A stretch of DNA of 36,885 nt. Origin: Halobacteriales archaeon QS_5_70_17 (lineage in GTDB: Archaea; Halobacteriota; Halobacteria; Halobacteriales; Haloarculaceae). The notes below the pieces were generated by a model. The model made no database searches and was not told the origin of the DNA. It saw only the letters and a program-made list of their open reading frames with translations. Position 1 is the first letter of the stretch. Each line of letters opens with the position of its first letter. Positions 3,351 to 12,170 of this stretch are shown piece after piece. Where the stretch lies: assembly GCA_003021975.1 (NCBI GenBank), contig PXRR01000032.1, positions 1 to 36,885 of the forward strand, written 5' to 3'. The translations under genes and the position numbers were made by a program.

Positions 3351-3391
3351 TTTAGGCAAATACTTGTTGCATACCGTCACAGAAGGTGACG

Positions 3392-4504
3392 ATGCGACTC
3401 ACAGTCACCCTGATCGCCGTCGCGGTCGTTCTGGCCGGCGTGCCCGCGGGAGCGCTCGGCGCGCCGACGGCGGCGGGGAGCGCCGACGCACAGCAGGAGA
3501 CCGACTGCGGTTACCCGTACTCGGCCACCGACGCGACGGGTACCGAGGTCTCCGTCGACGACCGACCGGAGCGGATCGTCGCGCTCCAGGCGAGCACCGC
3601 CCAGATCCTCTGGGAGGTCGGCGCTCAAGACCGGGTCGTCGGGATGCCCGTCCGGTCGTACACCGCCTACCTCAACGGCTCGGAGGAGCGCACCGACGTG
3701 CTCACCGAGGACGGCACGAGCGTCGACGTCGAGCAGGTCGTGGCGCTCGAGCCCGACCTGGTGATCGCGCCCAGTTCGATCCCCAACTCGACGGTCGAAC
3801 AGCTCCGGGACGCCGACGTCACCGTCTACAAGTCCGGCTTCGACCGCTCGATCGGGAGCATCTACGCGAAGACGAACCTCGTCGGTCGGCTCGTCGGCGA
3901 CTGCCAGCAGGCCAACGCGACCGTCGAGGAGATGCGCGCCGACGTCGAGCGCGTCGAGAACGCGGTGGAGGGCCGCGAGGCGCCCCGCACGCTCTACTAC
4001 TTCTACAACTTCACCGCCGGGAACGGCACCTTCATCCACGAGGTGATCGAGACCGCCGGGGGCGACAACGTCGCCGCCAACGCCGGCATCACCGGCTACC
4101 GGGAGATCAGCGACGAGGTCGTCGCCGAGCGCGACCCGCAGTGGATCATCACGCCGGGCGACGCGCCCCTGCCCGAGCGCGAACCGTTCCCGAGCACGAC
4201 CGCCTACCGGGAGAACCAGACCCTCTCGGTCAACCCCAACTACATGAACCAGCCCGCACCGCGGGTGGTGATCCCGATGCTCGAGATCGCACGGGCCCTC
4301 CACCCGGAGGCCTTCGAGAACGGGACCACGGAGACGGCTACCGCCGAACCGGACCCCGAGACTGTTACCGACTCGTCGACCGAGACTGCCGGCGGCGACA
4401 GCGACGTCGAGACGACGACCACGTCCGAGGACGGACCCGGATTCGGCGCCGTCGGGGCCGCGCTCGCCCTGCTCGCGGTCGCGCTGCTGGCGCGTCGCCG
4501 CTGA
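3392..4504 (+). CDS. btuF: BtuF-like substrate-binding protein with PGF-CTERM anchor
   Basis: The 370-aa surface protein has a Sec-type signal at about 1-25 (MRLTVTLIAVAVVLAGVPAG). A class III periplasmic-binding (TroA/BtuF) domain follows, with RIVALQASTAQILWEVGA, VVALEPDLVIAPSS and the long connecting helix near YAKTNLVGRLVG. After it come a Thr/Glu-rich linker and a C-terminal PGFG motif, hydrophobic helix and Arg-Arg-Arg end. That tail is the PGF-CTERM signal processed by the archaeosortase ArtA, which attaches the protein to a membrane lipid. It would deliver corrinoid or a similar ligand to BtuC/BtuD, encoded divergently. ATG 3392 is preferred over an in-frame GTG at 3386; GGTGA lies just upstream. 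Confidence 0.87.
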   Translation: MRLTVTLIAVAVVLAGVPAGALGAPTAAGSADAQQETDCGYPYSATDATGTEVSVDDRPERIVALQASTAQILWEVGAQDRVVGMPVRSYTAYLNGSEERTDVLTEDGTSVDVEQVVALEPDLVIAPSSIPNSTVEQLRDADVTVYKSGFDRSIGSIYAKTNLVGRLVGDCQQANATVEEMRADVERVENAVEGREAPRTLYYFYNFTAGNGTFIHEVIETAGGDNVAANAGITGYREISDEVVAERDPQWIITPGDAPLPEREPFPSTTAYRENQTLSVNPNYMNQPAPRVVIPMLEIARALHPEAFENGTTETATAEPDPETVTDSSTETAGGDSDVETTTTSEDGPGFGAVGAALALLAVALLARRR

Positions 4505-4839
4505 GGGGGAGAGGTAATCAAAGCCGCCACATATCGGGGTAACGTTACTTCATACCTCCCCGACTCGTGTACCACGTTCACTCCCTTCCGGGCGTTCCGG
4601 GCGGAGTGAACGCGTCCCTCGACAGCCGGGCCGGTCGCCGTTTCCCCCCGGCGACCGGCTGCTACCGACGTTCGCGGCGCCGGCGCCCGCCACGCCGCCG
4701 GCGCCGCGGCGCTCCCGGACGGCCGCCTGCGTGCTCTCGCCGTCCGGGGCGCTTCCGATCCTCGGACGACGCTCCGCGAGCGTCGCGACCGCCGAGAGAT
4801 GGCGAAAGGTAGTTCACAGGGCCGCCGGGTAGTGGTGAC
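4505..4839. other. 335-nt gene-free region with serial stem-loops; candidate structured RNA
   Basis: No convincing coding frame is present. Five strong inverted repeats follow each other: 4575-4584/4603-4612 (10 bp, perfect), 4630-4640/4649-4659 (11 bp, perfect), 4673-4685/4696-4708 (13 bp, perfect), 4714-4723/4739-4748 (10 bp, perfect) and 4767-4774/4778-4785 (8 bp, perfect, 3-nt loop). The last is enclosed by CTCGG 4761-4765 pairing with CCGAG 4792-4796. A weaker arm pair (GAGGTA 4511-4516 with TACCTC 4553-4558) surrounds a GTAACGTTAC palindrome. It lies upstream of srp19-gar1. A structured non-coding RNA or a long structured leader are the main readings. No SRP RNA or RNase P RNA signature was found. 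Confidence 0.5.
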
Positions 4840-5118
4840 ATGGTCGAGAACGTCATCTGGCCGGCCGCGCTGGACGCGAACTGCTCGCGCAGCGAGGGCC
4901 GGCGGGTCTCGCTGGACCTCGCCGTCGAGGAGCCCACGGTCGAGGAAATCGCCAAGGCCGTCCAGCAGGTGGGCTACGACGCGGTCGTCGAACGCGACAA
5001 GCGCTACCCCCGGGAGTACGAGGCCCGGGGGCGCGTGCTCGTCCGGAACGCCGACGACGCCGGGAAGTCCGATCTCCTGCAGGCGGTCGCCGCGTACGTG
5101 GGCGCGCTCAGGGCATGA
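4840..5118 (+). CDS. srp19: Signal recognition particle protein SRP19
   Basis: The 92-aa protein shows the SRP19 order: [14 protein letters not shown] at the start (strand beta-1), SRSEGRRVS, then [35 protein letters not shown], matching the archaeal family in length and in the basic RNA-contacting loop. It binds helices 6 and 8 of SRP (7S) RNA and helps SRP54 load, supporting co-translational targeting of membrane proteins. Its stop codon overlaps the gar1 start (ATGA), so the two RNA-binding proteins are translationally coupled. The stem-loop-rich region directly upstream could be its leader or an independent RNA gene. Confidence 0.95.
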
Positions 5119-5342
5119 ACCGCGTCGGCGAGGTCGTCCGCACCGCTCAGGGGCTGGCGATCCTCCGGGCGACCGGGGACGACCGCCCCGAGATCGGGCT
5201 GGCGGTGATCGACGAGAGCCTCGATCCAGTCGGCCGCGTCGTCGACGTCTTCGGCCCCGCCGAGCGCCCCTACGTCGCCGTCGACCCCGACGGGGACGTC
5301 CGCCTGCCCGGGCTGCTCGGGCAGGTACTCTACGCCCGGTGA
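5115..5342 (+). CDS. gar1: H/ACA ribonucleoprotein subunit Gar1
   Basis: The 75-aa protein is the minimal archaeal Gar1 beta-barrel: [17 protein letters not shown], then [29 protein letters not shown], with the conserved [10 protein letters not shown] core. It lacks the Gly-Arg-rich tails of eukaryotic Gar1, as is normal in archaea. Gar1 binds Cbf5 in H/ACA RNPs that convert uridine to pseudouridine in rRNA and promotes product turnover. It overlaps srp19 by four bases (ATGA), so it is probably expressed from the same mRNA. Confidence 0.93.
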
Positions 5343-11843: not shown

Positions 11844-12041
11844 ATGACTGCAGTCAGAGTGATCAAGGTGCTCGGCACCTCGGAGGAATCGTGGGAAGAC
11901 GCGGCCCGCGACGCCGTCTCGCAGGCCAACGAGATCGTCGAGGAGATCAGCGGCGTCGGGGTCCTCGACTACACCGGCGGCGTCTAGGACGGGCCCGCCA
12001 CCCAGTACAAGGCGACCGTCGAGATCGCCGTCCCCGTGCGG
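11844..12041 (+). pseudogene. Dodecin-like flavoprotein interrupted by an in-frame amber codon
   Basis: The ATG opens MTAVRVIKVLGTSEESWEDA, then ARDAVSQANEIVEEISGVGV, the strand-helix-strand start of dodecin, a small flavin-binding dodecamer of about 65-70 aa. A TAG stop at 11985-11987 ends the frame after 47 residues. The same frame continues DGPATQYKATVEIAVPVR, which is the expected last strand and includes the Gln of the flavin pocket. A GAG codon probably became TAG. Readthrough would run on without the usual stop, so the 3' end may also be altered. Readings: recent pseudogene, base-calling error, or less likely readthrough. The truncated 47-aa product lacks part of the barrel. Confidence 0.7.
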
Positions 12042-12051
12042 CGGCAGACTA

Positions 12052-12087
12052 CCTCCGACGGTGGGACCACGGGGTCCCGGTCGGAGG
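12052..12087. repeat. Strong two-part hairpin downstream of the broken dodecin
   Basis: CCTCCGAC (12052-12059) pairs with GTCGGAGG (12080-12087), and inside it GGGACC (12063-12068) pairs with GGTCCC (12073-12078) around a 4-nt loop. A run of five T follows about 50 nt later (ACTG-TTTTT-CAGT). It may act as a transcription end or mRNA-stability element for the dodecin transcript. Confidence 0.4.
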
Positions 12088-12170
12088 AGGAGTTCACGTC
12101 GCTGATCGGCCGCCTGCTGGGCTACTGCGAACTGCACTGTTTTTCAGTCACAGTCGTCGCGGGGGACCGT

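Follow-up and report, generated by a model that had tools for sequence, protein, structure and literature searches.

The spacer that separates a btuF-like gene from srp19 in the Halobacteriales archaeon QS_5_70_17 carries a dense series of perfect stem-loops, which raises the question of whether such a cluster is the sign of a structured RNA, a regulatory element of one of its neighbours, or a piece of palindromic DNA without any role of its own. The spacer lies in a window of 36,885 nucleotides (the whole stretch of DNA analysed, contig PXRR01000032.1), and the assembly of the source genome consists of 2.6 Mb in 78 contigs, 73% complete. The best 3 of 80 loci for its SRP19 protein, with 90-91% identity, are from Halomarina rubra, H. 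oriensis and H. halobia, and we infer from the sequences that the genome belongs with the Halomarina-containing group. On the plus strand, a gene for a btuF-like periplasmic-binding protein with PGF-CTERM (3386-4504; gene call, PF01497 with E 3e-26, PF18204 with E 2e-4) is followed by a gap of 335 nt and then by srp19 (4840-5118; PF01922, E 1e-24), gar1 (5115-5342; Pfam Gar1, E 7.5e-6 and 26.1 bits, under the curated cut-off of 29.3) and a signal-peptide-peptidase-like gene; SRP19 and Gar1 are the neighbours named in an earlier note on this DNA. The gap is also gene-free, as had been described there, with the calls of a simple codon-usage caller stopping at 4504 and restarting at 4840. A frame at 4567-4812 was considered as protein-coding and discarded, as it is arginine/proline-rich and the gene caller puts nothing in the gap. 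The GC content is 71% across the gap and 79% at 4575-4785, versus 70% over the 733,590 bases compared.

The five perfect inverted repeats previously listed, of 10, 11, 13, 10 and 8 bp, proved to be exact and correctly placed, and all of them can form on both strands. Hairpin 1 (4575-4612) has 10 bp and a loop of 18 nt, where the tandem TTCCGGGCG already described was found at 4586-4603. It is followed by hairpin 2 (4630-4659; 11 bp, loop of 8), hairpin 3 (4673-4708; 13 bp, loop of 10, to which the fold adds one pair beyond a single mismatch), hairpin 4 (4709-4752, with a core at 4714-4748 made of 10 bp between 4714-4723 and 4739-4748 and a loop of 15) and hairpin 5 (4767-4785; 8 bp, loop of 3). 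Two further elements, absent from the first description, are a 4-bp extension of hairpin 4 (4709-4712 with 4749-4752) beyond one bulged base, and a mini-hairpin in the fold at 4754-4766 (5 bp, loop of 3). An outer stem had also been proposed around the last hairpin, which in our own reading of the sequence is probably CTCGG 4761-4765 with CCGAG 4792-4796; the minimum-energy fold of 4612-4803 lacks this stem on both strands, and the second arm is taken up on the minus strand by a longer closing stem. Upstream of the block, an imperfect hairpin at 4506-4561, predicted in the plus-strand fold, comes straight after the btuF stop. On the minus strand, a short run rich in T comes after a part of this hairpin (4544-4525), and a scan of 4400-5000 for terminator-like sites found 1 where 0.2 were expected, which is a weak excess.

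The cluster is real and highly non-random, and within the genomes searched it occurs in this lineage only. That its density goes beyond chance, as first claimed, was borne out by dinucleotide shuffles, by a genome-wide count of stems, by a ranking of spacers and by folding z-scores. None of 1000 dinucleotide shuffles of 4505-4839 gave five non-overlapping stems of at least 8 bp (mean 0.27, maximum 2). In a background of 733,590 bases from the same genome, composed of the window and 40 other stretches, stems of at least 8 bp appear at a rate of 1.38 per kb; five of them within 335 nt are found nowhere else, four stems of at least 10 bp within 335 nt have their sole occurrence here, and four of at least 8 bp within the same length are found at nine start points, one of them inside the hairpin block. 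By hairpin count, the spacer ranks first among the 190 spacers of 150-700 nt defined in this genome by the simple codon-usage gene caller, with 5 stems against 2 for the next best (134 spacers have no stem, 46 have one, 9 have two and one has five). Once spacers over 450 nt or with N were left out, 166 of the 190 could be folded with 25 shuffles each, and the minus-strand z of the block's spacer (-6.28) was the lowest of the set and its plus-strand z (-4.38) the second lowest, while 100 shuffles of the whole gap gave z values of -3.25 for the plus and -5.23 for the minus strand. Another spacer of the window, at 11988-12170, also has a low fold z on both strands (-2.35 and -3.20).

The two strands do not fold equally well. 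On the minus strand, the arms 4615-4628 and 4786-4799 are predicted to pair as a 14-bp closing stem with 4 G-U pairs around four of the five hairpins, a feature that is new here and had no place in the first description. In the minimum-energy fold of minus-strand 4612-4803, 75% of the bases are paired, and the predicted closing stem, with pairing probabilities of 0.79-1.0, directly abuts hairpin 5 and encloses, in this order, hairpin 5, the mini-hairpin, hairpin 4 with its extension, hairpin 3, the open stretch 4660-4672 and hairpin 2. Apart from the unpaired 4660-4672, the spacers of this compact junction measure 0-1 nt. On the plus strand, the four G-U positions become A-C mismatches and the closing stem keeps 4 contiguous pairs versus 14 on the minus strand, the fold z of 4612-4803 being -4.26 versus -5.80. 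Fourteen contiguous pairs on either strand were reached in 4 of 20,000 shuffles of both flanks, a figure to be taken as a guide and not as a p-value, because the flanks were picked after the fold was known. The confident fold has four non-Watson-Crick pairs, and this long-range stem holds all of them; the five hairpins, with 52 bp in total, are Watson-Crick throughout, partly since they were selected as perfect. The predicted closing stem and the lower z favour the minus strand if an RNA exists, but four transitions in decaying arms would all lie on one strand's G-U side by chance 1 in 8 times; perfect short-range stems next to a long-range stem with 4 of its 14 pairs imperfect would suit a DNA-level correction of short palindromes. 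Large multi-branched noncoding RNAs have a closing stem round several helices, and the minus strand of the block, with its long closing stem round tightly packed helices, is like them in this general respect; it differs from them in having no Rfam match at threshold and no homolog found.

The hairpins stop next to a putative promoter of srp19. A promoter-like block CGAAANNTAGTT, made of CGAAA, two positions that are G or C, and TAGTT, is present 37-38 nt before the srp19 ATG in 8 of 8 genomes of the genus, the window's included. In the window it starts at 4803 (CGAAAGGTAGTT, 4803-4814, plus strand), at the edge of the hairpin block. We take it to resemble the BRE plus TATA-like box expected before a leaderless gene in haloarchaea. 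Between it and the last confidently paired base, at 4799, lie three bases. Since the predicted promoter-like block starts at 4803, the hairpins would lie upstream of the likely srp19 transcript, barring a further upstream start, and the block would thus be outside the srp19 mRNA. The structured srp19 leader suggested in the earlier note was given up on these grounds, as a leader is positioned between the transcription start and the start codon and the putative promoter is here downstream of the hairpins. When 4440-4900 was searched for a small set of words resembling BRE/TATA, the minus strand had none of them.

Membership of a known RNA class finds little in the block to build on. An H/ACA-type guide had been mentioned as a candidate, together with the remark that simple hairpins without clear pockets are unlike typical H/ACA RNAs, and it is the remark that held. 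There is no TGA on either strand of 4612-4803, and therefore no canonical K-turn in the corresponding RNA, while the one TGA that each strand has in 4575-4612 is inside the paired arms of hairpin 1. No pseudouridylation pocket is present in the confident hairpins, which are perfect or show one bulged base or one single mismatch. In work on Haloferax volcanii, H/ACA stem-loops are described as containing an internal loop, a K-turn and an ANA motif, and the H/ACA hairpins HP1 and HP2, which a long spacer separates, as conserved in this species and in further halobacteria (PMC2584109). The block resembles HP1 and HP2 as a set of hairpins in a haloarchaeal intergenic region, but it has neither UGA in 4612-4803 nor pocket, and the searches of its relatives in the genus did not find it. 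A C/D box RNA was likewise rejected, as there is no CTGA on either strand of 4505-4839 in addition to the missing TGA of 4612-4803. Over the whole window, only a tRNA at 2-74 reaches the Rfam threshold, and at E values up to 5 the region 4440-4900 gives one riboswitch match, of 15.2 bits against a cut-off of 40. Among the literature matches listed, nothing corresponds to the block, from which no claim is made that it is absent from print.

Conservation of the stems in relatives, whose lack was one half of the refuting condition given in the earlier note, was not observed in the data searched. The gene srp19 is present in 7 of the 7 other genomes of the genus, and btuF comes right before it in 6 of them, with gaps of 84, 115, 89, 110, 217 and 155 nt; the block was found in none of the seven. 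Local alignments of the block to the six short gaps score at the level of shuffles, and even for the best of them (in genome G005, a likeness first seen by eye) 46 of 300 shuffles score as high. In genome G002, where the gap is of 799 nt, matches at the locus cover only the srp19 promoter stretch. A membrane-protein-like reading frame on the opposite strand sits there between btuF and srp19 (L091, about 988-1400), which indicates that the content of this junction varies within the genus. The short gaps fit an empty site in the relatives, although they do not align and so give no exact borders for it. A covariance model, R1, was built from one sequence, that of the block; its E values are rough, and the large searches were run under stricter filters. 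It finds the window's block at E 1.5e-35 and, at E up to 1, nothing in the 7 other genomes of the genus. At the family level, 15 of 146 genomes match at E up to 1, the own one included (best other, 0.089), and at the order level 5 of 392 do so at E up to 0.1, again with the own one included (best other, 0.038); among the 32 loci searched of 87 related ones, the best E is 0.004. The matches at L016, L177 and L178, which comprise the best two of the order and the best of the related loci, were discarded as homologs because they lie inside coding frames, which presumably encode elongation factor 1-beta for the two order matches and the small subunit of carbamoyl-phosphate synthase for the related locus. 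BLAST matches in 65 of the 146 family genomes, own included, were not accepted as homologs either, since they are pieces of ~26-107 nt, most from the GC-rich middle, and the best other one (G002) is the conserved srp19 promoter stretch. Plasmid and phage records gave no match to the block. In viral contigs, the pattern of hairpin 2 led to 6 stretches that were set aside, with local alignment scores of 28-42 for their surroundings that have no shuffle control and with nothing recognised in them.

In its own genome, the block was found as one full copy. Two other matches, of 48 and 29 nt, sit within long reading frames, no 20-mer of 4566-4802 recurs in the 733,590 bases, and the longest shared word, of 19 nt (L158), is at chance level, as 102 of 500 shuffles of the block share an 18-mer. 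In a genome only 73% complete, a single copy is weak evidence either way. No target-site duplication was noticed by eye at the block, and the 14-bp outer arms, which carry four transitions, are as terminal inverted repeats only candidates for element ends. Elsewhere in this genome, a perfect inverted repeat of 92 bp, its loop 7 nt long, occupies 7773-7963 of L147 (G000:C26), within a large membrane-protein frame that seems to read like an Mrp antiporter subunit; the sensible reading appears to switch frame after the repeat, which suggests an assembly fold-back artefact in the source genome.

The same spacer holds repeated DNA in 3 of 3 other haloarchaea tested. From 87 spacer rows, 35 without a btuF match in the stretch were not used, and the 52 that remain correspond to 48 distinct gaps (L004/L085, L005/L087 and L006/L086 are duplicates, to which one identical gap pair is added). 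A perfect stem of at least 8 bp was found in only 3 of the 47 gap rows of up to 420 nt (43 distinct), namely L046, L075 and L083. The gaps of relatives are on average unstructured, with a mean z of -0.11 for the plus and -0.45 for the minus strand (32 rows, 29 distinct, 60-420 nt), though L019 and L020 (Halosimplex), L075 (Halorientalis) and L083 (Halobium) have low z values on both strands. Three of these spacers, picked for their strong fold z with the likewise strong L020 left out, were searched for in their own genomes, self matches being included in the counts. The gap of Halosimplex carlsbadense (L019) has 27 matches, several of which are both strands of one place, that of Halorientalis salina (L075) has 4, and that of Halobium salinum (L083) has 7, mostly partial. 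Given the choice by strong z, three repeats in three spacers give no estimate of how frequent such repeats are; they do indicate that repeated palindromic sequence occupies the btuF-srp19 spacer in separate lineages. The H. carlsbadense repeat, with the inverted repeat GTGAAAGCCCC ... GGGGCTTTCAC at L019 2170-2370, is a dispersed palindromic element. The H. salina spacer carries a 78-bp MITE-like palindrome (L075 2368-2445), and that of Halobium salinum several hairpins (L083 2249-2460), parts of which recur in its genome. As a class, we regard the three as dispersed palindromic repeats or MITE-like elements of haloarchaea. The block is like them in occupying the same spacer, in its intergenic nature, in its inverted repeats and in its lineage specificity. 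It differs from them in that they have 4-27 matches in their own genomes and the block no second copy in an incomplete one, and in that neither element ends nor a target duplication could be recognised in it.

The most likely reading, with an even chance and no better given the lack of a second copy in an incomplete genome, is an intergenic insert, rich in palindromes and specific to the lineage, that lies between the btuF end and an intact srp19 core promoter. The block would have originated by insertion of ~190-230 bp somewhere within 4575-4799, and the inserted DNA would probably be what survives, as one copy or as a remnant, of a dispersed palindromic element like those of this spacer in some other haloarchaea. 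Template switching within a hairpin would have corrected the short-range stems and so kept them perfect, and the far-apart outer arms would have drifted by four transitions. A simple terminal-inverted-repeat element would be less elaborate than five stems of differing sequence plus a closing stem, which speaks against an insert. Such an insert would have no conserved function, and its position would allow it at most an effect on the 3′ end of btuF transcripts: should transcription of btuF read through past its stop, the hairpins would give the transcript a stable 3′ end and keep read-through away from srp19-gar1. A dedicated role of this sort, where plus-strand hairpins in the btuF 3′-UTR end or protect the mRNA and work by position, not sequence, seems improbable. 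The block does follow btuF on the same strand and stops just short of the srp19 promoter-like block, and the plus-strand fold is also non-random (z -4.38), but the longest T run of that strand in the spacer is 3, the scan of 4400-5000 gave no plus-strand terminator-like site, and the gaps of relatives are mostly unstructured, with the four exceptions given above.

A multi-hairpin RNA is possible, more so on the minus strand than on the strand of the genes, and in its minus-strand form it is the chief new alternative to the insert. That an orphan structured RNA is made from the minus strand, its closing stem 4615-4628 / 4786-4799 predicted to surround hairpins 5, mini, 4, 3 and 2, is consistent with z values further from chance than those of the plus strand, both for 4612-4803 and for the whole spacer, with the probable and contiguous pairing of the closing stem, with the tightly spaced junction and with the scarcity of equal stems among the flank shuffles. 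However, no convincing homolog came out by sequence or by covariance model in the 146 family and 392 order genomes, the minus strand has no BRE/TATA-like site among the words searched, the model stems from a single sequence, and both the choice of the flanks after the fold and the one-sided G-U pairs weaken the case, so that such an RNA appears unlikely. Slightly more doubtful is the fuller proposal of a new, lineage-restricted, multi-branched RNA with the 14-bp closing stem, encoded opposite the btuF-srp19 junction on minus-strand 4612-4803 and perhaps extending to ~4520. As for an H/ACA guide RNA linked to the adjoining gar1, the proximity of that gene is all that speaks for it, and the missing UGA, the pocketless confident stems, the single sub-threshold riboswitch match in Rfam and the failure to find the block in the rest of the genus make it extremely improbable.

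In any case, each outcome would have its own meaning. If the block is an ordinary insert, as in the reading with an even chance, the btuF-srp19 spacer can carry palindromic DNA in separate haloarchaeal lineages, and hairpin density by itself would be a poor indicator of RNA genes. As an RNA, the block would be an orphan structured one, for now past the reach of covariance methods, for which one strand is clearly predicted and which is hence directly testable.
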